This document shows positions 4,254 through 29,388 of a stretch of DNA of 29,745 bases, in pieces. Every line of letters begins with the position of its first letter. Position 1 is the first letter of the stretch. A program made the translations under genes and the position numbers. This stretch comes from a virus, in IMG/VR virus record IMGVR_UViG_3300032299_000851, positions 1 to 29,745 of that record. One strand, 5' to 3'. A model generated the notes under the pieces. The model ran no database searches, was not told where the DNA came from, and was given only the letters and a program-made list of their open reading frames with translations.

Positions 4254-6031
4254 GCTCGATTGTTATCGACGTCGACGGGACGATCGATCTAAACGGGGAG
4301 CCGAACGAACCGCTCGTCGCTGCACTTAATCGACGCGTCGCCGAGGGCGATCGAATCGTCGTCGTCTCCTCCCGTCAAGAGTCCCGACTCCGAGAGACGA
4401 AATTCTTCCTCGACGATGCGGGGCTCGGGTATTCCGAGATCTACCTTTCGGACTTCCCCGAAGGGCCGAACGCGGGGAATGCGTTCAAGTCGTATAAAGT
4501 TTTTAAGCTAATCGAGGACGGCTACGAGATCGACGAGGCGATCGATAATGACGCCGAGATCCGTCGCATCTATCGGGGAATGGGGATCGACGCGTTTACG
4601 GCGGACGAGTACCTCGACAATAACTCGCGTTCGACCGAGGGTCGAGCGATCGATCCGAACGGCTACGAGCCGAACGCAGCGATGCGCGAAGAAGCCGAAC
4701 GCGGTCTCGAATGGCGGCGTGAATACAACCGAGGCGGGACGCTTGTCGGCGTCGCGCGAGCTCGCGATATCGCCGCAGGGAAGAGACTCCCCGCGGATAC
4801 CGTCCTCCGTATGCGATCATATTTCGCACGTCACGAAGTCGATAAAGAGGCGCAGGGATTCCGACCGGGGGAAGACGGCTTCCCGTCGGCGGGTAGAATT
4901 GCGTGGGCATTGTGGGGAGGAGATCCCGCGCAAGCGTGGGTCGAGTCTATTATCGAATCATTCTCCGAGGAGAAGTCAACGAATAAGACGGGAGACGAAA
5001 TGGGAATCGAGTTCCGAACCGCTACGGCGCACCTACGCGCAGTCGACCCGGAGGGAATGACGTTCGAGGGGTACGCTTCGCTTTTCGATTCGCCGAGCGG
5101 CGAAGGAGTCGATCCCGAGATCGTCAAGAAGGGCGCATTCTCCCGAAGCCTCGCCGCTGCGCGACGCGGCGAATGGGACGTCCGCGCGTATCAGGATCAC
5201 GACCCGAAGCTTCTCCTCGGTACGACGAAGTCGGGAACGCTTGAACTTGAAGAAAACGACAAGGGCCTCCTCGCCCGTATCCGTCTTAACCCGAAGATCT
5301 CTTTTCACCGTGACCTCGCCGAGCTCGTCCGTACGATGCAATCGTCCCTCGGAATGAGCTTCGGTTTTTATTCAACTCGCGCGAATACGATTAACGATGA
5401 CGGCGTCCGCGAACTGCGCGACGTAAAGCTCGTCGAAGTCTCCGCGTTGACGGGGCTCCAACCGTACTACCCGGGAACGCTCTCCCTCGTCGCCGTCCGA
5501 TCCCTCGCGGATAAAGCGGGCGTCGATACGACCGAACTCCGAGACGCACTCTCCGCGATGCTCGCAGGGAAACTGCGCGGGAATCACGCGAAGTCGATTA
5601 CTGCGGCTCTCGAAGTCTCGCTCCGAGACGTCGAAGGAGTCCCGACGAAGTTCCCCGAAGATGCGGAGAAGCCCGTCGAGAAGATCGAGGAGCCCGTCGT
5701 CGAGGACGAGAAGAAGCCCGAGGAGAAGCGTTCAGTCGCAGACGATCTCGGGATCGTCGTCTCGGATCTCTCCGAAGCCGTCGCCGCTGCGGACGCAGGG
5801 CTCGCGACTGCGGAGCAGCTCGCCCTTATCGTCACCGCTGCGAAAGGTGTTATCGACGAGGCCGCCGCGGAGCCCGTCGAGCTCGACGTAATGCCGGGCG
5901 AGATGGCTCCGTCCGAATATGTCGACGAGCACGAGGGCGGCGAGAAGATTAAAATCGAGATCGAGGTAACCGTTCCACGATCCATTCGTGAGAAGGAGCT
6001 CGAACTCCTCGATCTTTCGCGTAAGATTTAA
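4250..6031 (+). CDS. HAD domain - conserved domain - prohead protease fusion
   Basis: 593 residues with at least three modules. Residues 1-125 look like a HAD-type phosphatase (DVDGT at 7-11, VVSSRQ as motif II, DNDAEIRRIY as motif III). Residues about 150-237 form a domain with RGGTLVGVARARDIA and GFPSAGRIAWALWGGD, known from the N-termini of phage head proteins. From about residue 251 it is an S78 prohead protease with FEGYASLFDS, probable catalytic H317 (QDHDP) and S370 (GMSFGF). The Glu/Lys-rich C-terminal 150 residues look like a scaffold segment. A second, in-frame start at 5000 could make the protease alone. GTG start overlaps the previous stop. Confidence 0.9.
   Translation: MSSIVIDVDGTIDLNGEPNEPLVAALNRRVAEGDRIVVVSSRQESRLRETKFFLDDAGLGYSEIYLSDFPEGPNAGNAFKSYKVFKLIEDGYEIDEAIDNDAEIRRIYRGMGIDAFTADEYLDNNSRSTEGRAIDPNGYEPNAAMREEAERGLEWRREYNRGGTLVGVARARDIAAGKRLPADTVLRMRSYFARHEVDKEAQGFRPGEDGFPSAGRIAWALWGGDPAQAWVESIIESFSEEKSTNKTGDEMGIEFRTATAHLRAVDPEGMTFEGYASLFDSPSGEGVDPEIVKKGAFSRSLAAARRGEWDVRAYQDHDPKLLLGTTKSGTLELEENDKGLLARIRLNPKISFHRDLAELVRTMQSSLGMSFGFYSTRANTINDDGVRELRDVKLVEVSALTGLQPYYPGTLSLVAVRSLADKAGVDTTELRDALSAMLAGKLRGNHAKSITAALEVSLRDVEGVPTKFPEDAEKPVEKIEEPVVEDEKKPEEKRSVADDLGIVVSDLSEAVAAADAGLATAEQLALIVTAAKGVIDEAAAEPVELDVMPGEMAPSEYVDEHEGGEKIKIEIEVTVPRSIREKELELLDLSRKI
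5000..6031 (+). CDS. possible internal-start prohead protease/scaffold product
   Basis: Within the fusion gene, ATG 5000 is preceded by GGGAG about 6 bases upstream and begins MGIEFRTATAHLRAVDPEG, which looks like the natural N-terminus of free-standing prohead proteases. It would yield a 343-residue protease with scaffold tail, without the HAD and GRIAW domains. The short linker before it (EEKSTNKTGDE) is a typical low-complexity joint. Whether both forms are made is inferred, not shown. Confidence 0.4.
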   Translation: MGIEFRTATAHLRAVDPEGMTFEGYASLFDSPSGEGVDPEIVKKGAFSRSLAAARRGEWDVRAYQDHDPKLLLGTTKSGTLELEENDKGLLARIRLNPKISFHRDLAELVRTMQSSLGMSFGFYSTRANTINDDGVRELRDVKLVEVSALTGLQPYYPGTLSLVAVRSLADKAGVDTTELRDALSAMLAGKLRGNHAKSITAALEVSLRDVEGVPTKFPEDAEKPVEKIEEPVVEDEKKPEEKRSVADDLGIVVSDLSEAVAAADAGLATAEQLALIVTAAKGVIDEAAAEPVELDVMPGEMAPSEYVDEHEGGEKIKIEIEVTVPRSIREKELELLDLSRKI

Positions 6032-22124: not shown

Positions 22125-22145
22125 CCTCGTAAGATCTCGGGTACG

Positions 22146-22187
22146 CCGCGTTTCGGGAGCCTCCCCCGGGACGCGGCTCCTCCTTTT
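22146..22187 (+). terminator. strong intrinsic terminator
   Basis: A 12-bp stem (22146-22157 with 22165-22176, two G-U pairs) with a 7-base loop, followed by a pyrimidine-rich tail containing TTTT at 22184-22187. It ends the rightward operon that includes the metallophosphoesterase and insulates the early promoter just downstream. Confidence 0.75.
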
Positions 22188-22240
22188 CGTGCTCAATTAC
22201 GCACGAAATCGACCCTCCTTGCGGGTTTTGGGAACGGGGC

Positions 22241-22269
22241 TTGCGCGGGAACGCCCGTTCCCGTATAGT
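22241..22269 (+). promoter_or_regulatory. early promoter with SOS-type operator
   Basis: -35 TTGCGC (22241-22246), 17-base spacer, -10 TATAGT (22264-22269). The spacer is a perfect palindrome GGGAACGCCCGTTCCC (22247-22262) whose core GAAC-N4-GTTC equals the LexA box of Gram-positive and actinobacterial hosts. A half-site GGGAACG lies 17 bases upstream (22230-22236). Binding here would block RNA polymerase, so the early genes should be repressed and released by DNA damage or by loss of a phage repressor. Confidence 0.75.
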
Positions 22270-22279
22270 GCTCGTAGAT

Positions 22280-22294
22280 CGGGGAAGTTCCCCG
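22280..22294 (+). promoter_or_regulatory. palindrome in early leader
   Basis: CGGGGAA-G-TTCCCCG, 7-bp arms around one central base, just after the expected transcription start. Such a short centre fits protein binding to DNA better than an RNA hairpin. It differs from the GAAC-N4-GTTC box, so a second regulator may act. Confidence 0.55.
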
Positions 22295-22318
22295 TGAAGA
22301 AACGAAGGAGGCTACGAA

Positions 22319-22522
22319 ATGTCAGCATTTCTCGTACGGGTTCACGGGAGCTCGAAGTCCGAAAGCGTCAACTGCGGCGAATGCACGAATGCGACCCTTG
22401 CCGCGAATCCGGGAGTCGACTTCGAACTCGTCGAGCTCGGGGATCTCGATCGCGCGAAGCTTCGGTTTAACGAATGCGACTCGTGCGACGCGGCCCTCGA
22501 TTCGAATCGAATCGCAGAATGA
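22319..22522 (+). CDS. small cysteine-rich early protein
   Basis: 67 residues, first early gene, AAGGAGG upstream. Contains CGEC at about residues 19-22 and CDSC near 56-59, two CxxC knuckles that could bind one zinc ion. N-terminal strand FLVRVHG. No family recognised. First-transcribed early genes of phages are often host-takeover factors; this is only positional inference. Confidence 0.65.
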   Translation: MSAFLVRVHGSSKSESVNCGECTNATLAANPGVDFELVELGDLDRAKLRFNECDSCDAALDSNRIAE

Positions 22523-22674
22523 GTAAGGAGGAGGCGAAGAAGGTTCAACTCGAAGACGCCGATCACCTCGGGCAATGCCCGACGTGCGGCAAATACCGGA
22601 AGAAGATCGAAGCGGGGAAACTTCGACCCTGCTACGAATGGGAACGAGTCGAAGTAAAGGAGGCGCAAGAATGA
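22519..22674 (+). CDS. small zinc-knuckle protein
   Basis: 51 residues, start overlapping the preceding stop (ATGA). Contains CPTCGKYRKK and a further Cys (RPCYEW), plus a basic/acidic helix at the C-terminus (VEVKEAQE). Zinc binding is possible though one ligand is not obvious. Unknown function. Confidence 0.6.
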   Translation: MSKEEAKKVQLEDADHLGQCPTCGKYRKKIEAGKLRPCYEWERVEVKEAQE

Positions 22675-22775
22675 GAGAGGCAATTCGTCAAGGGATTATT
22701 CGCGGAGTGATGATCGGGTCGTGGGTCGTCCTCGGGTATTTGATCGCCCGAGAGATTATGCGGGGCTCGTTGTGA
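22671..22775 (+). CDS. 34-residue single-helix membrane peptide
   Basis: Start ATG overlaps the preceding stop (ATGA), and its stop overlaps the next GTG. Basic N-terminus (MREAIRQGIIRG) followed by the helix VMIGSWVVLGYLIA and an ERM-like basic end. Only the tight overlaps and AAGGAGG at 22656 argue for translation. Confidence 0.5.
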   Translation: MREAIRQGIIRGVMIGSWVVLGYLIAREIMRGSL

Positions 22776-23269
22776 TCGCCGTCAAATATCGATCGCTCTT
22801 CGATACGAAGCCCGTCGGATCGTTTACCGATTGGGAGCAGCTCGTCGAGGCTTTCTCGACGAGCGTCGAATCGATCGATAAGGAACGCGGGGCTCTATGG
22901 GCTCCGGTCACGTTGACCGAGGGCGGACGTCGCAGGAATGCGGACGTCGAGCGGGTAACTGCACTCGTCCTCGACGTCGACGGCGGGACGGCGTACGCCG
23001 ACGCGAGAGAAGCTCTTCGCGAGAAGACGTGGATCGCGTACTCGACGTACTCGCACACTCCCGAGAATCCTCGCTTTCACGTCGTAATGCGGCTCGACGA
23101 AGCGGTCTCGGGGAGCCTATGGCCGACCGAGTACCGGAAGTTAAAGGAGCGAATCGGGTTCGGGGATAACCTTCCCGCTCCGTCTCACTCGTACTTTTTG
23201 CCGCAGCATAAGCCGGGGGCGGAATGGTTTTTTGAATCATACGCACCGAAGAAGGAGGGGAAGAAGTGA
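22772..23269 (+). CDS. primase-like (AEP) domain protein
   Basis: 165 residues from GTG 22772. VTALVLDVDGG supplies a D-x-D pair, WIAYSTYSHTPENPRFHVVMRLDE matches the strand with T/S-x-SH and the nearby R-H pattern of archaeo-eukaryotic primase-like domains in phage and plasmid replication proteins, and SHSYFLPQHKPGAEW is the usual end. Probably a primase-polymerase or a replication initiator domain standing alone. A helicase partner is not seen in this window, so the host helicase would be recruited. Confidence 0.7.
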   Translation: MIAVKYRSLFDTKPVGSFTDWEQLVEAFSTSVESIDKERGALWAPVTLTEGGRRRNADVERVTALVLDVDGGTAYADAREALREKTWIAYSTYSHTPENPRFHVVMRLDEAVSGSLWPTEYRKLKERIGFGDNLPAPSHSYFLPQHKPGAEWFFESYAPKKEGKK

Positions 23270-23436
23270 AGCTTCGTAAAGAGACGACTCCGATCGTTTA
23301 TCGGAGTCTTAAAGTTCGGGACGACGCATACGAGGAATTCCTCCGACGTGAGCATACGGCGGAACGTCGGAGGATCACGATCGCAGCGGTCGTATTCCTC
23401 GTGCTCTTCGCCCTCTTTATGGAGGGGCTTCGATGA
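23266..23436 (+). CDS. small C-terminally anchored membrane protein
   Basis: 56 residues from GTG 23266, with overlaps on both sides. N-terminal 35 residues are charged (KLRKETT, DDAYEEFLRREHTAERRR), then one transmembrane helix ITIAAVVFLVLFALF and EGLR at the end. GGAGGGG precedes the start. Unknown function. Confidence 0.6.
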   Translation: MKLRKETTPIVYRSLKVRDDAYEEFLRREHTAERRRITIAAVVFLVLFALFMEGLR

Positions 23437-24314
23437 GCCCCGCGGCGATCTCGAAAGCAATCGACCCGAAGCGAACGGGGATCTCGAAGTCCCTTATCAC
23501 CTCGACCGCTCTATGCGGTCGGAAGGGTTGGTTCTCCGAGCACGTGCGGCTACCCGACGGCTCCCGCGTTCCGTGGATTCTCCCGGAGCGAGTCGCATTT
23601 GGCGCAGCTCTCGACGAGGCCGTCCTCTCGATCGCGTTCGCCGAGCGAACTAATACGGCGTGGAATCCGTACGAGGTACTCGCCGACGGAATGGGAGCAG
23701 TTCGAGGGAAGAAGACGGAAGCCGGTATCGATTGGTTGAAGTTCGAGGACGATCTCAAAGTCGCGATCGATCTCTTCGTCTTCGACGTGCTCCGTCACGG
23801 AACCTCGGACGCTCCGCTCGTGGACTTCCACGGGTCGAAGCTGCAAGGGCTCGACGGCGAATCGCTGCGGGTTGGGGATCTTATCGGGACGCCCGACTTC
23901 ATTCTCTCGGGAGATACCCGACCGAATGGGCGGACGTTAATCCTCGACTTGAAAGCGTCCGCTCGGTCGAAGTCCGAGAAGGATCTCCGCTCGGCGGAGC
24001 TCTCTTATTACGCTTGGTTATGGGCGGCGTATACGAAGGGGGATCTTCCCGACGTGGGTTATTTGACCTACGTTCGGAAGACGAAGCCTACGTATCAGCT
24101 CTTAACCGGGAGCGTTACGTCGGCGCAACTCCTCCTCGCGGAAGAGTACGTAAAGACGACGCGTTCGATTATGTCGGCGAAGACGCAGGAAGACGTCGGA
24201 TTCTCGACGAACTTTTGCGGCTCGTGCGAATGGCGGAAGCCGAACCCGGACGCAGGGTTCGAGGGTTGTAGCGTCGGCTCGCTTGTCGCGGCCGAGGAAG
24301 AGGAGGCGGAATAA
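23433..24314 (+). CDS. Cas4/RecB-like PD-(D/E)XK exonuclease with Fe-S cysteines
   Basis: 293 residues. The nuclease core is GTPDFIL (D155), then ILDLKAS (D172, K174) and a downstream SAELSYYAWLWA helix with the expected Q/Y-like motif. Cysteines C28, C262, C265 and C279 follow the C-n-CxxC-n-C layout that holds a 4Fe-4S cluster in Cas4 and AddB. Together with the annealing protein directly downstream it forms a two-part recombination system analogous in logic to an exonuclease plus single-strand annealing protein. It is not near any CRISPR array. Confidence 0.85.
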   Translation: MSPAAISKAIDPKRTGISKSLITSTALCGRKGWFSEHVRLPDGSRVPWILPERVAFGAALDEAVLSIAFAERTNTAWNPYEVLADGMGAVRGKKTEAGIDWLKFEDDLKVAIDLFVFDVLRHGTSDAPLVDFHGSKLQGLDGESLRVGDLIGTPDFILSGDTRPNGRTLILDLKASARSKSEKDLRSAELSYYAWLWAAYTKGDLPDVGYLTYVRKTKPTYQLLTGSVTSAQLLLAEEYVKTTRSIMSAKTQEDVGFSTNFCGSCEWRKPNPDAGFEGCSVGSLVAAEEEEAE

Positions 24315-24976
24315 TGGGATTCGAACTATCGAAGGATTATATCGACGTCGCGGAGAGGCTCCGCGAATGGTACGAGAAGTATCCGCTCGGACGAGTGACG
24401 ACGGCGATCGTCGAGCTTACCGAAAAGAAAGTCGTCGTAAAAGCGGAAGCGTTCCGCGATGCGACGGCGACGATTCCCGCGGGAGTCGGTCACTCCGCGA
24501 TGGTTATTCCGGGCTCGACCCCGTATACCCGGGGATCGGAACTTGAAAACTGCGAGACGTCCGCAGTCGGTCGGGCTCTCGTAATGGCGGGACTCGCCTC
24601 GAAGCGGATCGCCTCGGCGGACGAGATCGAGGCGAAGCGGGCTCCCGAGGGAACTCCGACCGTCTTCCCCGTATCGGAACCCTCGGCGGCGATTTCGCAA
24701 GCCTCTACGGGCGGCAAATCCGCCTCTGCGTCGATCTCCGAAGACGACGCTCTCGTCTTCGCTGCGCGGGCTATGGGATTCGTCGAGGCGGACGAGGCGA
24801 AGGGATCGGGCGTATGCCCGAAGCACGCTCGACCGTGGAAGCTTCGGGAAGGAACGGGAGCGAAGGGGCCGTACTCGTTTTATAGCTGCGGAGCGAAAGA
24901 CGATACGGAGCGTTCCGGTTGGTGCAATCTTCGACCGTCGATCGCGTGGGTCAACGCCCAAGCGGGCGGACGATGA
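24314..24976 (+). CDS. single-strand annealing protein, Rad52/ERF-like
   Basis: 220 residues, start overlapping the exonuclease stop. The N-terminal half has RLREWYEKYPLGRVTT, VVVKAEAFRD and the diagnostic TRGSELENCETSAVGRALVMAG region (here in part), which matches ERF/Rad52-type phage recombinases. The C-terminal half is a linker followed by a Cys-containing region (VCPKHARPWK, YSCGA, GWC), probably a zinc domain. It would coat and anneal single strands during replication or end repair. Confidence 0.82.
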   Translation: MGFELSKDYIDVAERLREWYEKYPLGRVTTAIVELTEKKVVVKAEAFRDATATIPAGVGHSAMVIPGSTPYTRGSELENCETSAVGRALVMAGLASKRIASADEIEAKRAPEGTPTVFPVSEPSAAISQASTGGKSASASISEDDALVFAARAMGFVEADEAKGSGVCPKHARPWKLREGTGAKGPYSFYSCGAKDDTERSGWCNLRPSIAWVNAQAGGR

Positions 24977-25416
24977 AGGGTCGTCCGTGGGCGAAGTTCG
25001 ACGTCGGTATGCCGAAAGACGGAAAAGTCGCGACGCTCTCTTCGGACGGGGTTCGATGGGCGTTCGTCGCGATCGTGCTCGCTGCGAAAGAGCAGGATCG
25101 GCAAGGATTCTTCGATTCACTCGCGCACCTAAAAGCGGTCGTCTCGACGACCGTCGCGGACTGCGTCGAGGAGCTCGTCGATAAGGGTCTCCTCTCGGTT
25201 GACCCGGACGGCGTGATTCACGTCTCGCGTTGGACTCGATACCAAATTGACCCGACCGCAGCGGCTCGGGCGAAAGCGTATCGGGAGCGAAAGCCGGAGC
25301 CCGTCTCGGACGTACCCGCAGGGGTGCGCTTCCGTGACCGCGTTCCTCCTCCTCGTTCCTCGAAGGGGACGCCGCAGTCGATCGCCTCGATCGTTAAAAA
25401 GACGGTCGAATCGTGA
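24973..25416 (+). CDS. winged-helix replication initiator-like protein
   Basis: 147 residues, ATG overlapping the upstream stop. Segments MPKDGKVATLSSDGVRWAFV, VVSTTVADCVEELVDKGLLS and VIHVSRWTRYQ form a winged helix as in the N-terminal halves of phage replisome organisers (DnaD/gpO style). The basic C-terminal tail (RERKPEPVS through SIVKKTVES) has no recognised partner-binding motif. It may bind the replication origin, which I did not locate. Confidence 0.7.
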   Translation: MKGRPWAKFDVGMPKDGKVATLSSDGVRWAFVAIVLAAKEQDRQGFFDSLAHLKAVVSTTVADCVEELVDKGLLSVDPDGVIHVSRWTRYQIDPTAAARAKAYRERKPEPVSDVPAGVRFRDRVPPPRSSKGTPQSIASIVKKTVES

Positions 25417-25997
25417 GCGGGTACGGAATGCGGATCGTGATCGACGACGAACTCCGGGCGAGGGCTCGTGAGCTCTACCCGAAGGGACTCGCACCGGAGA
25501 CGGCGTATCTCGGCGAGGAAGCCCTCGTCGCGGGTGCGTTCGGAGAGGCCGCGTTCGAGCGGGCGATCGAGATCCTCGAACTCCCGAACCCCGAATACGT
25601 CGGGTCGCAGCGTCTCCCGTGGGACTTTATCGGCGAGCCGTACGGACGGGTCGACGTGAAGACGAAGCCTCGGAGCGTCCCTCCGAGGGTCGAATACGAG
25701 GCGGGGATCGCAGCGGAGCAGCTCGCGAAGCCGGATCTCCCCGACGTCTTCGTCTTCGTCTCGTTGTATCCGAAAGCGGCTCGTCCGGGGTACTACTACG
25801 AGGAGGCGTGGATCGTCGGGTATATGCCCGTCGAACGGTTTAAGAAGTTCTCGCACCTCGTCCCGGCGGGCTCGCCGATGGGGAACGGAACCTCGAAGTC
25901 GTGGCGGGATATGCACGACGTAAAGCTCGGTCAACTATGGCCGATCGAATGGCTTATCCCGTACGAGAAACGTGACGGAGCCGTTCGTAAAACGTGA
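25413..25997 (+). CDS. PD-(D/E)XK nuclease-like protein
   Basis: 194 residues from GTG 25413. GAFGEAAFERAIEI carries a helix with conserved Glu, LPWDFIG the Asp strand and GRVDVKTK the D-x-K catalytic strand of the PD-(D/E)XK superfamily. The rest (EEAWIVGYMP, SWRDMHDVKLGQLWPI) is unfamiliar. Likely a restriction-like or repair nuclease. It sits at the end of the recombination block; a hairpin overlaps its stop codon. Confidence 0.7.
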   Translation: MSGYGMRIVIDDELRARARELYPKGLAPETAYLGEEALVAGAFGEAAFERAIEILELPNPEYVGSQRLPWDFIGEPYGRVDVKTKPRSVPPRVEYEAGIAAEQLAKPDLPDVFVFVSLYPKAARPGYYYEEAWIVGYMPVERFKKFSHLVPAGSPMGNGTSKSWRDMHDVKLGQLWPIEWLIPYEKRDGAVRKT

Positions 25998-26015
25998 CGG
26001 ATCGTACGCGTCACG
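25993..26015 (+). terminator. hairpin at end of recombination block
   Basis: Perfect 7-bp stem CGTGACG (25993-25999) and CGTCACG (26009-26015) with a 9-base loop, overlapping the stop codon of the upstream gene. No U run follows, so it may attenuate rather than terminate. Confidence 0.4.
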
Positions 26016-26025
26016 GTACGAGACA

Positions 26026-26056
26026 TAGACTTGATACGTAGACTTAGACTTAGACT
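26026..26056 (+). repeat. four copies of TAGACT in intergenic region
   Basis: TAGACT occurs at 26026, 26039, 26045 and 26051; the last three are directly tandem. TAGACT is also the -10 element of the leaderless gene at 27048, so this stretch may be a set of overlapping promoters or a binding array. TTGATA (26031-26036) could serve as a -35 box, but the distance of 14 to the last TAGACT is short. Confidence 0.55.
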
Positions 26057-26086
26057 CTTGTTAAAGAGGGAAAGTGAGGCTTGAAA

Positions 26087-26518
26087 ATGAGCGAGGCAAT
26101 GCACCCGGAGAAGGAGCTGCTCCCGATTTTGCACGATGGGCAAGGACGCCCATTCTTCGAATATCTCCTCTTCCCGTACTACGCGGAGGCGTTCGAGATT
26201 CTTGTCGAGCGTCAAGGGAAATACGGCCCCAAGAATATCCTCGACGCAGGGGTTTACGGGGTGGTCGAGCAGCTACGAAATAAAGTCGAGCGAGCCTCGG
26301 CGCAACTCCACGGAACGGTCGTCGACGGGCGGGTCGTCCTCGAACCTATGGACGAGGAGACGAAGAAAGTCTTTCGGGACTCGCTCCTCGATCTTGCGAA
26401 CTATTCGATGATCGCCCTCGCTCTTATTGAGGGGCTATGGGTCGCCGATATGGTGCTCGACCCGACGAAACCGGCTCGACCCTATGGGCTCGACGTTTCG
26501 TGGATTGGGGAGGGTTGA
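26087..26518 (+). CDS. Nmad1-like (DUF1599) nucleotide-modification-associated protein
   Basis: 143 residues. ERQGKYGPKNILDAGVYGVVEQLRNKVERA and FRDSLLDLANYSMIALALIEGLW carry the conserved pattern of the nucleotide modification associated domain 1 family, a fold with acidic metal-binding positions. Family members lie near DNA base-modifying or nucleotide-handling genes in phages; a dNTP or modified-base role has been proposed for them. I chose ATG 26087 (GTGAGG 8 bases upstream) over TTG 26081. It opens an operon with the LexA-like gene. Confidence 0.72.
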   Translation: MSEAMHPEKELLPILHDGQGRPFFEYLLFPYYAEAFEILVERQGKYGPKNILDAGVYGVVEQLRNKVERASAQLHGTVVDGRVVLEPMDEETKKVFRDSLLDLANYSMIALALIEGLWVADMVLDPTKPARPYGLDVSWIGEG

Positions 26519-26520
26519 AG

Positions 26521-26730
26521 ATGAGGGAAGAGACGCAGGATCTCCTTTACGCAATCCGTTCCTTCGTACGGATTCACGGGTACGCACCGACCGTCCGGGA
26601 ACTTGCCGAGGAGCTCGGGGTCGGTCACTCTACGGTCGCGAAGGGTTTAAACGAGTTAATAAACTTCGACAAGATCCGCCGAGACGCAGGGGTCGCGCGC
26701 GGGATTGTCGTACGGGAGGAGGGTCGATAA
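26521..26730 (+). CDS. LexA-type DNA-binding domain protein, no protease part
   Basis: 69 residues, GGGGAGG upstream. DLLYAIRSFVRIHGYAPTVRE, then LAEELGVGHSTVAKGLNELI and KIRRDAGVARGIVV match the LexA N-terminal winged helix, including the recognition helix around HSTVAKGLNEL. The autocleavage domain (Ser-Lys) of LexA is absent. It could bind GAAC-N4-GTTC sites such as that in the early promoter and compete with, or be controlled by, host LexA. Sits in an operon downstream of the Nmad1-like gene. Confidence 0.8.
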   Translation: MREETQDLLYAIRSFVRIHGYAPTVRELAEELGVGHSTVAKGLNELINFDKIRRDAGVARGIVVREEGR

Positions 26731-27038
26731 TGGCCGAGGTATCAGTTAAGCGAGCCGAGCTCTCGTATCGAGATTCGTACGACGTCGACGACGTCCGTCT
26801 CGAAATCCGAGAGGGTCGGTATCCCTGCGGGAACGTGAAGCTCGAAGCGATTAACGTCGACTCGACGTTCACCTATGCGACGCTCTCGCAAGACGTCGAA
26901 GTCCCGCTCCCGGAGGGGATCTTTCAGCTTCGAGATTGGGGTCACGTCAACGAGTTAGCGGTAACGCTCGTCTCTCTTGGGATTATCGAATCGGCGGACG
27001 ACGAGGGGATCTTCTTCCGTCTCGTCGACGTCGGGTAG
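26730..27038 (+). CDS. conserved-looking early protein, unknown
   Basis: 102 residues, start overlapping the previous stop (TAATG). Mixed charged protein with DVRLEIREGRYPCGNVKLEAINV in part, then ATLSQDVEVPLPEGIFQLRDWG and a helix ELAVTLVSLGIIESADDEGIF. No family recognised. Good coding composition. Confidence 0.6.
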   Translation: MAEVSVKRAELSYRDSYDVDDVRLEIREGRYPCGNVKLEAINVDSTFTYATLSQDVEVPLPEGIFQLRDWGHVNELAVTLVSLGIIESADDEGIFFRLVDVG

Positions 27039-27047
27039 ACTTCCCGA
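27036..27047 (+). promoter_or_regulatory. leaderless -10 promoter
   Basis: TAGACT (27036-27041), then TCCCGA, then ATG 27048, overlapping the stop codon of the upstream gene. It shares TANNCT-NNNCGA-ATG with the promoters at 72 and 28354. No Shine-Dalgarno precedes this ATG. Confidence 0.5.
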
Positions 27048-27248
27048 ATGGCGGGAGTTAAGACGCAAAAGGGAGGGCCTCGACGCGAGCCCGTATGGGC
27101 GGCGAAGCCCTGCGCGGATTGTCGCGAGGAGATCGTAAAGTTCGCCGACGCTTCACGCGTTAAGGAGATCTCCTTCCCGGTAGGGTCGGGGCGTCGCACC
27201 TCGTATCGTTGGGTTCACCGAAAGCATTTATTCGCAGGGGCGAAGTAA
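27048..27248 (+). CDS. small basic protein, leaderless
   Basis: 66 residues, rich in Lys/Arg (KTQKGGPRREP, RVKEIS, GSGRRTSYRW), with one CADC motif and HRKH near the end. These Cys/His residues (C-x2-C...H-x3-H) could form a zinc site. Start lacks a ribosome site but follows a -10 box directly. Its stop overlaps the start of the resolvase-like gene. Confidence 0.6.
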   Translation: MAGVKTQKGGPRREPVWAAKPCADCREEIVKFADASRVKEISFPVGSGRRTSYRWVHRKHLFAGAK

Positions 27249-27640
27249 TGGGACGCGTTAAGGATCTCGCGATCGACGAGGCGAACGAGGAGAGGCGCAA
27301 GCGAGGAGCCCGCAGTAATAACCGCGGGAAAGCGTTCGAGAGGGAGATCGCAGGGAAGCTCGGCGAGGACGCAAAACGTACGGGGCAATGGGGCGGGAAA
27401 ACCGACGTCGAGGCTCCGTGGATTCAAATTCAAACGAAACTCGGAAACGGGTATTTCCCAACGCGTCTCGATAACGCACTCCGAGCGATTAACCCGAGGG
27501 GCGACCAACTTCGAGCCGTCGTCGTCGGGAATCGGCCCGAGACTCCGGGCGTAAAGCGGACGACGCTAATCGTCCTCGACTTCGAGCAGTTCGTAGCGTG
27601 GTTCGGGGGGCGCAACGATGAAACGATTAACGAGGAGTAA
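27248..27640 (+). CDS. Holliday junction resolvase-like PD-(D/E)XK nuclease
   Basis: 130 residues from ATG 27248. NRGKAFEREIAGKLG gives the Glu helix, GGKTDVEAPW the catalytic Asp strand and IQIQTKLG the Q-x-K strand, as in Hjc-like and phage resolvases. KERRKRGAR-type basic N-terminus supports DNA binding. Such nucleases resolve branched replication or packaging intermediates. Overlaps its neighbours at both ends. Confidence 0.72.
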   Translation: MGRVKDLAIDEANEERRKRGARSNNRGKAFEREIAGKLGEDAKRTGQWGGKTDVEAPWIQIQTKLGNGYFPTRLDNALRAINPRGDQLRAVVVGNRPETPGVKRTTLIVLDFEQFVAWFGGRNDETINEE

Positions 27641-27830
27641 CCGACCCGTCGACGCTATCGAGCTCGTGCTCGCGTTGACGCAAGCCCGGATCATTGGGGA
27701 GTCGACTCTTAAAGACGCTCCCGAATATCTTCGAGGGTACGAGGACGGAATCCGCGTCGCGATCGAATTAATCCGAGCCTCGGACGGAATGCTAAAAGCG
27801 GTCGACGATCGGGAGTACGAGAAGCGATGA
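27618..27830 (+). CDS. small helical protein
   Basis: 70 residues, starting 23 bases inside the resolvase-like gene. Two helices (VDAIELVLALTQARII and EYLRGYEDGIRVAIELIRA). Ends ATGA-style into the next gene. Unknown function; overlaps and coding composition support it. Confidence 0.55.
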   Translation: MKRLTRSNRPVDAIELVLALTQARIIGESTLKDAPEYLRGYEDGIRVAIELIRASDGMLKAVDDREYEKR

Positions 27831-28333
27831 CCGGATTCGTGCGAACCCTCGTCGGGGTCGTACTAATCGCCGCAGTCCTCGCGGTCGGTGCAATCCCTCC
27901 GCGCGTGATCGTTTACCCGTCTCCCTCTCCCTCAGTTGAAGTAACCCCCGAGCCGTCGCCGACGGACGCATTTCTCTCGATCTCCGGTCGTGCGACGTAT
28001 TACGACGCAACTCGGAACGGGGCTTGGTTTACTCGTGCAGCTCGTCCCGGCTCTAAGAAGTATCACCAAGACGGAGCACCGTATCCGTTTTACGCTGCGG
28101 CCTCTCCCGCTCTTCGTAAGCTGCGGGCGTTTCGTTGGGGATCGGAGCCGTACCGCGTGATCGTCTCGAATACGAAGACGAACGTCTCGATCGTTGTATG
28201 GATTGTCGACGAGTGCGCTTGCGTCGGCGGAAGCGTTATCGATTTAAGTCCGCTTGCGTGGAAGACGCTCGGCGAAGGGAAGATCCCATTCTCTCGCGGA
28301 GTGCAAGACGTCCGGGTCGAGATCCTTCCGTAA
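27827..28333 (+). CDS. secreted RlpA-like double-psi-barrel protein
   Basis: 168 residues, start overlapping the upstream stop. N-terminal transmembrane anchor or signal (LVGVVLIAAVLAVGAIPP), then a Pro-rich extracellular linker (SPSPSVEVTPEPSP), then a double-psi beta-barrel domain: GRATYYDATRNGAW, FYAAASPALRKL, YRVIVSNTKTN and VIDLSPLAWKTLG, with the Asp in VIDLS equivalent to the catalytic position of RlpA/expansin-type proteins. C-x-C (DECAC) may form a disulfide. Probably acts on the host cell wall, outside the main lysis cassette. Confidence 0.75.
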   Translation: MTGFVRTLVGVVLIAAVLAVGAIPPRVIVYPSPSPSVEVTPEPSPTDAFLSISGRATYYDATRNGAWFTRAARPGSKKYHQDGAPYPFYAAASPALRKLRAFRWGSEPYRVIVSNTKTNVSIVVWIVDECACVGGSVIDLSPLAWKTLGEGKIPFSRGVQDVRVEILP

Positions 28334-28353
28334 CGCGCATCTCCCGATTCGGG

Positions 28354-28365
28354 TATCCTGCGCGA
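28354..28365 (+). promoter_or_regulatory. leaderless -10 promoter
   Basis: TATCCT (28354-28359), GCGCGA, then ATG 28366. Third copy of the TANNCT-NNNCGA-ATG arrangement; no Shine-Dalgarno present. Confidence 0.5.
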
Positions 28366-28863
28366 ATGGGCGGAGAATGGCGGCGCAAGGATCGAGACGA
28401 GAAGTCGAAGAGTAACCTCGCGCGTCCCGAGGCGAAGATCTTTTATGCGATGGTGAAAGAGGCTCGCGGCAATAAGCGAGCTCTCGCCGGAGTAAGTATC
28501 GCGCAAGACGAACTCGGACTCCCGACGTCGTGGCTTCGTGAACGCGTCGCGGGTCGAATTCGGGTTAAACCCGTCGATCTCGAAGTCTTGCAGCGGCTAA
28601 TTAATATTGCGAAGTCTCGCGTCTTCCATTCGGGGATTACCGTCGAGGAGGCGACGGCTCGACGCCGAGAGAATGCGAAGCCGTCCGCGGAGCTTGCGGA
28701 GTATCGACGAGCCGTTCGGCGTATGTGCCGAGAGTGCGTCGGGTGCGACGGTCGGGATAAAGACGAGGATCTCGAATGCCCGGACGGATCTTGCCCGCTG
28801 CGTCCGATCTCTCCGCTTAAACTTTCCGCGAAGCCGATCGTCGTCGGGGAGACGTGGGAGTAA
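28366..28863 (+). CDS. cysteine-rich late-early protein, possible regulator
   Basis: 165 residues, leaderless. N-terminus is basic (GGEWRRKDRDEKSKSNLARP), followed by helices, including SIAQDELGLPTSWLRERVAG, which resembles a helix-turn-helix. The C-terminal third has a cysteine cluster (MCRECVGCDG, DLECPDGSCPLRP), a plausible zinc site. Positioned last on the + strand before the zincin/HNH pair. A transcription regulator of late genes is a guess. Confidence 0.6.
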   Translation: MGGEWRRKDRDEKSKSNLARPEAKIFYAMVKEARGNKRALAGVSIAQDELGLPTSWLRERVAGRIRVKPVDLEVLQRLINIAKSRVFHSGITVEEATARRRENAKPSAELAEYRRAVRRMCRECVGCDGRDKDEDLECPDGSCPLRPISPLKLSAKPIVVGETWE

Positions 28864-28872
28864 ACTCTCGAC

Positions 28873-28947
28873 GGGGCCGCGTGGACGCTTCGCTTTATCC
28901 CGAGAGATAAGCGGGGGAACCCGAGGTTCGACTCCTCGGCGGCTCCA
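28873..28947 (+). other. tRNA-like element (T arm and acceptor), degenerate
   Basis: GAGGTTCGACTCCTC at 28924-28937 and its flanks give a textbook T stem (28922-28926 with 28934-28938) and T loop TTCGACT. GGGGCCGC (28873-28880) pairs with GCGGCTCC (28939-28946) as an 8-bp acceptor, and the total length of 75 suits a tRNA. The middle instead folds into an 8-bp hairpin with one bulge (28891-28913) and gives neither a normal D arm nor a 7-base anticodon loop with U33. No CCA follows (ATCA). A decayed tRNA, an attachment-site remnant or a regulatory tRNA mimic are options. Confidence 0.4.
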
Positions 28948-29388
28948 TCATCTCCGACCGCACGCTTCTCCTCGACGCTCCTTCGGTGCAGCGAAGCCGT
29001 ACTTAGCGGCGAAGACGGGACGAGCCGATCGATACTCGATCGCGAGGACTCGGTCGGCGTGAAGGGCTTTCTTCGGCGAGAGATACTTCGAATGCAGTCG
29101 CATTGTCTCGATCGCCCATTTCCGCGAGTGATAATCGTTTACGGATAAGTGCGCGAGCTCGTGAAGGATTGTCTCCTTATCTTGCCCGGAGCATAGGGTT
29201 ACGGTGTATTCGTCGAAGTCTGCCTCGCCGTCATAGCACCCGAGCGACCCTTCGGGGTGCGAGTGCAGGATCACCGCTTCGACGCGAATCTTCTCGGCCT
29301 CGGCGACTCGTTCGAGGAACGCGATCGTCGGCTTCCACGCGTCGACTTTCTCGACGGGTTTATCCTCGGGAATGATTAGTCGAATCAT
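28948..29388 (-). CDS. zincin-like metallopeptidase, only minus-strand gene
   Basis: 146 residues starting at MIRLIIPEDKP (ATG at 29386-29388). The zinc-binding HELAH helix is in ETILHELAHLSVNDYHS, with a further HSHPEGSLG strand. The pattern resembles SprT-like or other short phage metallopeptidases with unknown substrate. Longer upstream extension exists but lacks a sensible start; there is no ribosome site, so it may also be leaderless. It diverges from the HNH gene with 13 bases between starts, with a palindrome across its own start. Confidence 0.7.
   Translation of the reverse strand: MIRLIIPEDKPVEKVDAWKPTIAFLERVAEAEKIRVEAVILHSHPEGSLGCYDGEADFDEYTVTLCSGQDKETILHELAHLSVNDYHSRKWAIETMRLHSKYLSPKKALHADRVLAIEYRSARPVFAAKYGFAAPKERRGEACGRR
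29372..29388. promoter_or_regulatory. palindrome across minus-strand gene start
   Basis: ATGATT (29372-29377) and AATCAT (29383-29388) form 6-bp arms around a 5-base centre, covering the zincin start codon. With the HNH start 14 bases away, both divergent genes could share one control site. Confidence 0.4.

Follow-up and report, generated by a model that had tools for sequence, protein, structure and literature searches.

A candidate LexA-type operator in the early promoter of a predicted lytic actinophage group, with a protease-less LexA-like protein as its likely ligand

The stretch of DNA analysed here, which we call the window, corresponds to an IMG/VR virus record in its entirety (29,745 bases). 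Most of its right-hand part is taken up by a presumed early operon, which also includes a gene that we take to be RlpA-like, and a ParB-like protein is encoded at 84-584. The early operon is preceded by a promoter whose hexamers, TTGCGC and TATAGT, are separated by the 17 nucleotides GGGAACGCCCGTTCCCG; the features of this region are collected in Table 1. The contig of a relative, L002, connects the end of the window with its start, to within about 12 bases, which indicates a nearly complete genome with a circular or permuted map.

Table 1. Positions in the window of the early promoter, its neighbouring features and the LexA-like gene, with GTAC operators from relatives
Feature	Position	Strand	Basis
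Intrinsic terminator-like hairpin closing the upstream (late/exonuclease) operon	22145-22177	+	13-pair stem, T-rich tail
-35 element TTGCGC of the early promoter	22241-22246	+	sequence; TTGCAC/TTGCAG/TTGACG/TTGACA at the equivalent place in relatives
Operator, LexA-type palindrome CGGGAACG-CC-CGTTCCCG, in the promoter spacer	22246-22263	unstranded	sequence
-10 element TATAGT	22264-22269	+	sequence; relatives TATTCT, TATACT, TACAGT, others
5'-UTR hairpin CGGGG-AAGTT-CCCCG, a few bases past the predicted start	22280-22294	+	alignment of 13 sequences
Ribosome-binding site AAGGAGG of the first early gene	22305-22311	+	sequence
First early gene, 67 aa, no assigned function	22319-22522	+	ORF
Presumed early operon (primase-like, PD-(D/E)XK nuclease, replication-initiation-like, LexA-like, others)	22319-28863	+	ORFs, Pfam/PHROG
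LexA DNA-binding-domain protein without protease part, 69 aa, presumed early-promoter repressor	26521-26730	+	Pfam, AlphaFold2 model, dN/dS
Helix 3 (residues 36-48), presumed recognition helix HSTVAKGLNELIN	26626-26664	+	model secondary structure; HMMER alignment to LexA recognition helix
GTAC operators of L090/L091/L100: GGGTAC-TCTT-GTACCC / TGGTAC-TGAT-GTACCC / GCGTAC-GGGC-GTACTA			
GTAC operators of L101/L115/L146: CGGTAC-GCCT-GTACAG / ATGTAC-AGAT-GTACAC / TGGTAC-GGGT-GTACCA			

Direct reading of the sequence confirmed that a LexA-type box lies within the TTGCGC/TATAGT spacer, as had been proposed in an earlier, sequence-only reading of this DNA. That reading described the 17-base spacer as a perfect palindrome with the core GAAC-N4-GTTC; the core is indeed present, but the symmetry is not perfect over the spacer alone, since two 8-bp arms flank a non-complementary CC and the first base of the palindrome is the last base of the -35 hexamer. 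With the transcription start predicted at about 22276, the operator is centred at about -22. The palindrome was also considered as an RNA hairpin and rejected because it sits upstream of this start. The -35 hexamer is weak (3/6), and the promoter scanner did not call the TTGCGC/TATAGT pair (8/12 matches). Although the core is that of the actinobacterial SOS box, the flanks of the window box read GGGAAC..GTTCCC and do not conform to the tCG..CGa of the SOS box. A further dyad, TTCGTGC..GCACGAA, lies just upstream of the promoter.

On its own, the box in this one genome is weak evidence, and the motif is not significant by itself. Shuffles of the window contain GAACN4GTTC 1.12 times on average and at least once in 65 of 100 cases; a scan of the window for further copies, suggested in the sequence-only reading, found none, leaving a single copy against those 1.12 expected by chance. 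The looser pattern GWACN4GTWC likewise occurs once in the window, inside the promoter gap. When the 194-bp gap is shuffled, 4.7% of the resulting sequences contain an arm of 8 bp by chance, and four other palindromes in the window have arms of at least 8 bp around a 2-nt centre. What raises the box convincingly above chance is its conservation in relatives.

We fetched relatives via the LexA-like protein, the upstream metallophosphoesterase-type exonuclease and the large terminase, and defined the module as a -35 element, GWAC-N4-GTWC and a -10 element ahead of the early operon. The tally was confined to 22 contigs that have a LexA-like gene and cover the site, all collected without use of the module; L146 and L153 were left out because the module search itself had found them, and L041 because its contig begins within the early operon. 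The full strict module was present in 17 of the 22 contigs (the window, L002, L004, L090, L091, L092, L099, L100, L101, L104, L105, L107, L108, L109, L110, L112 and L115). Because many of the 22 are near-duplicates, they represent about a dozen lineages. In L004 the contig ends within the LexA-like gene, of which just the first part is present. The remaining five carry a degenerate copy in which one GTAC half is intact (L006/L093, L007/L097, L008/L095, L010/L096 and L098), as in TGGGAC-GGGC-GTACCA of L010/L096 and GGGAGC-GGAT-GTACCA of L098. Matches to GWACN4GTWC that lie outside the promoter module in L095, L096 and L009 were not counted as operators.

The full module pattern had no match on either strand of 80 bacterial control contigs (1,380,905 bases, of differing base composition), and none in the four TerL relatives that have 10 kb of upstream sequence and no LexA-like gene (L054, L062, L063 and L066). 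The pattern of TTG plus operator was seen in 13 of 18 upstream regions, against 0.27 regions expected from dinucleotide shuffles. Because the base compositions of the controls differ and the contigs are related to one another, we read these tallies as indications and not as p-values. Judged from the contigs compared, the LexA-type box goes with the presence of the LexA-like gene across the phage group.

In the two closest relatives that cover the promoter the arms are unchanged and the -35/-10 context is kept, while the centre changes from GCCC in the window to GGGC (L002) and GAAT (L004). In more distant relatives the architecture is the same but GTAC replaces GAAC, as it does in most sister operators, and L092 and L099 have mixed GTAC/GAAC operators. 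The operator of the window clade fills the spacer right after the -35 element, whereas most others lie further downstream, abutting or overlapping the -10 element. A form that stays constant while its position relative to the -10 element shifts between lineages argues that the operator is not a by-product of the promoter.

The LexA-like protein that the sequence-only reading had pointed to, a 69-residue DNA-binding domain without a protease, proved real. Pfam LexA_DNA_bind (PF01726) matches residues 6-61 at 3.6e-8, above the cut-off, and a profile built from eight relatives matches LexA chains in the PDB. Foldseek, run with an AlphaFold2 model of mean pLDDT 78.5 in which the wing is poorly predicted, ranked LexA 3k2z (1.1e-4, TM 0.83) and the LexA-DNA complex 3jso/3jsp first. 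At only 69 residues the protein does not contain the self-cleaving, dimerising S24 C-terminal domain, and the hinge and the cleavage site are missing as well; S24 peptidase (PF00717) was found in none of 14 records. Pairwise dN/dS values among the window, L002 and L003 are 0.16, 0.05 and 0.11, and the gene is syntenic and, by these values, under purifying selection.

Neither tyrosine integrase (PF00589) nor serine recombinase (PF00239) was found in any of the 14 records, some of which may be fragments. TerL relatives in cellular genomes are distant (36-44% in the four best-ranked, from Actinomycetes, and about 31% in Clostridia), which allows the host to be assigned to phylum only, and weakly; it is probably a member of the Actinomycetota. 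The nearest named phage by terminase, at 41%, is Pontimonas phage phiPsal1, which has been described as lytic and as having a circular map (PMC6106888). As a candidate for a named relative sharing the switch it was set aside, its annotation having two cI/Cro-type HTH proteins and no LexA-like gene.

The geometry of the phage operators is that of known LexA boxes. The Bacillus box is given as CGAACN4GTTCG and the Nostoc box as RGTACNNNDGTWCB (PMC3091678), and the phage operators, GWAC-N4-GTWC, span the range between them. For Streptomyces LexA the motif is tCGAAC-N4-GNNCGa, with TCGTACGTACGTTC accepted at dnaE2 and some GTAC half-sites tolerated (dnaE2-1) (PMC9380542), and this tolerance makes the GTAC variants compatible with binding by a host LexA. 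The base just outside the core (position -1), however, is G in 24 of 34 phage half-sites and C in only 3, and an outer G rather than C favours a related but different reader, namely the phage protein.

In E. coli LexA the DNA-contacting residues of helix III are Ser39, Asn41, Ala42, Glu44 and Glu45 (PMC3091678), and in our HMMER alignment residues 37, 38, 40 and 41 of the window protein (S, T, A and K) fall opposite Asn41, Ala42, Glu44 and Glu45. At residue 40 the GAAC clade (window, L002) has A, and the other module-bearing phages whose protein could be read have Q, a split that is suggestive of tracking the GAAC and GTAC operators. A strict code (A for GAAC, Q for GTAC) is contradicted by the L092 contig, where a Q-type protein occurs with a second module of GAAC/GAAC type besides one of GTAC/GAAC type.

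Our preferred reading, to which we give a probability of about 0.6, is that the box serves as operator for the early promoter and most likely has the 69-residue LexA-like protein as its ligand, which would act by autorepression in the fashion of Cro in a predicted lytic actinophage group. RNA polymerase would enter at TTGCGC/TATAGT and transcribe the early operon, including the LexA-like gene about 4.3 kb downstream, whose product would then accumulate. Two of its winged-helix domains would occupy the two GAAC half-sites in the spacer, and the bound protein would block polymerase and so lower early transcription. The layout is Cro-like, with the candidate operator inside the early promoter and the gene downstream on the same strand; if the early genes form one transcript, this arrangement would give negative feedback. 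With the operator centred at about -22, bound protein should block sigma contacts, and the 17-18 bp spacing together with an operator inside the core promoter would fit repression and not activation of the MerR type, which we rejected on spacer length (17-18). The missing dimerisation domain makes the affinity of the protein for a single site uncertain.

The sequence-only reading had left a choice between an early switch responsive to DNA damage and a LexA-mimicking phage repressor incapable of self-cleavage. The latter is better supported, by the co-occurrence of box and gene and by the absence of S24 peptidase from the 14 records: a phage protein that has no protease would undergo neither self-cleavage nor RecA-dependent release, so its timing would be set by protein level and not by DNA damage. 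A switch responsive to DNA damage found no support beyond the shared core, given the GG..CC flanks, the mostly GTAC sister operators and the lack of any integrase in those records.

Cro-type proteins of lambdoid and telomere phages are small early autorepressors. The LexA-like protein resembles them as a small DNA-binding protein proposed to lower its own early promoter; it belongs to another fold family, and the window shows neither a CI partner nor a divergent lysogeny promoter. Its best match among annotated phages is the 69-aa F116p12 of Pseudomonas phage F116 (45% identity), and in F116, a temperate podovirus of a gammaproteobacterium, and its relatives the LexA-domain gene lies near recombination and DNA-metabolism genes, as it does here. 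The nearest studied case of a phage-encoded LexA DNA-binding domain without a protease is gp6 of the Bacillus thuringiensis phage GIL01, a temperate tectivirus which employs host LexA in lysogeny; gp6 is described as a shortened LexA that switches on a late promoter by binding a palindrome at -43.5 (GaCACAC GTGTGaC) overlapping the -35 element (PMC6182141), whereas in the window a GWAC-N4-GTWC site lies inside an early promoter and would serve repression. With the Gram-positive and cyanobacterial LexA proteins, as described (PMC3091678), the phage protein shares the winged-helix domain and the box geometry GWAC-N4-GTWC; it differs from them in lacking the hinge, the cleavage site and the S24 protease/dimerisation domain, and its box has other flanks. 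A search of titles and abstracts, mainly of openly accessible papers, returned no description of a LexA-domain-only protein as an early autorepressor. Early repression would give the protease-less LexA domain of phages a second role, beside late activation in GIL01, and operator and probable repressor together offer a testable regulatory circuit for an uncultured phage group. The naturally occurring GAAC and GTAC operators, with their matching proteins, are also well suited to deciphering how LexA domains read DNA.

In one elaboration, host LexA and the uncleavable phage copy would compete for a single site, the box having the same core and spacing as the SOS box of the host. The phage group as a whole may then have cut LexA down to its DNA-binding domain and kept the box, reading the SOS state of the host on entry and overriding it later; we consider this elaboration unlikely. 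Similarly unlikely is a shared operator at which both proteins bind and the phage protein keeps the promoter off once host LexA has been cleaved. The host-like core and spacing, the LexA-family membership of the phage protein and the account of two LexA family members acting at one GIL01 promoter speak for sharing; but those two proteins are described as binding different sequences (PMC6182141), the flanks here differ from the host box and we saw no lysogeny functions.

That host LexA by itself holds the early promoter off until DNA damage, the phage listening to the SOS state of its host, we regard as quite improbable. The phage GIL01 offers a precedent for the use of host LexA (PMC6182141), the GAAC-N4-GTTC core is common to the actinobacterial and Gram-positive boxes, and the TerL relatives point to a probable host in the Actinomycetota. 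Set against this are the outer bases of the operators (GG..CC for tCG..CGa, with C at position -1 in 3 of 34 half-sites), the prevalence of GTAC in sister operators, the way the site tracks the phage LexA-like gene, and an integrase count of 0 in 14 records, hence no sign of an inducible prophage. It is very improbable that some other phage or host regulator binds the palindrome while the LexA-like protein acts elsewhere: a site of LexA-type geometry is paired with a protein of LexA type and the two co-occur, even if further small early proteins are unclassified and the covariation of the recognition helix is imperfect. Least likely, finally, is a mini-LexA that works as an activator and a box that recruits polymerase, for although the closest experimentally studied phage LexA-domain protein, gp6, activates and the -35 hexamer of the window is weak, the gp6 site at -43.5 overlaps the -35 element (PMC6182141), whereas the box discussed here falls between -35 and -10, or over -10 in relatives, as expected for occlusion of polymerase, and the relatives have strong TTGACA/TTGACG boxes.

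The proposed repressor may have more than one target in some of these phages. The L092 and L099 contigs each carry two modules: besides the copy ahead of the early operon there is another that follows the HNH gene and precedes the packaging genes, and L041, despite beginning inside the early operon, shows the second; modules at another operon start suggest a small regulon. The window has a single module and no second copy. Second modules between the HNH and terminase genes were seen in one subgroup, with the hairpin in most (L092 at 13469, L099 at 13445, L041 at 7489, L038 at 1517, L042 at 2283 and L045 at about 107). In L101, L104, L105, L107, L108, L109 and L112 a second operator lies on the opposite strand upstream of the early promoter, in a TTGACA promoter of its own. 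This leftward promoter, with a GGTAC-N4-GTACC operator (L101 at about 4959; L104, L107 and L112), faces the late genes behind a terminator-like hairpin and possibly yields an antisense transcript.

Other palindromes occupy the region just upstream of the early promoter in several relatives: one of the type ATATTCA-n3-TGAATAT in L098, L140, L144, L146, L152 and L153, and a different dyad, GGTTAAG..CTTAACC, in L004. At the equivalent place in L062 (position 595), which is without a LexA-like gene, the palindrome TTGACGG-N7-CCGTCAA covers the -35 element of a promoter-like site, possibly for a different repressor in the same role.

The hairpin in the 5'-UTR is conserved along with the promoter. 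Across 13 distinct sequences including the window, all 65 of 65 cells of its 5-bp stem are paired, with compensatory change at two of the five pairs (three cells), against at most 72% pairing in slid controls. Variants include CCGAG/CTCGG in L090 (4082-4103) and CCGGG/CCCGG in L091 (4074-4095), and the L101 group has an unrelated stem, GACCAG/CTGGTC, at the same place. Single-sequence RNA folding draws the hairpin at a z of -0.6, which is not significant, so that the case for it is carried wholly by the alignment; Rfam had no match anywhere in the window. The hairpin probably protects the early message or aids its translation. The gene or genes directly after the early promoter vary by lineage (window 22319-22522; L002 about 5131-5580; L004 from about 11254; L090-L146). 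Promoter, operator and hairpin thus stay constant while the first early slot varies, as expected of counter-defence or host-takeover genes.

Downstream of the early operon, the intergenic stretch 28864-28947 resembles the 3' part of a tRNA (GGTTCGACTCC); neither ARAGORN nor Rfam called a tRNA there, and it is perhaps a tRNA relic. It is followed at 28948-29385 by the only apparent minus-strand gene of the window, which has a weak PHROG match to a metallo-protease and whose product contains a HELAHL motif that we take to be zinc-peptidase-like.
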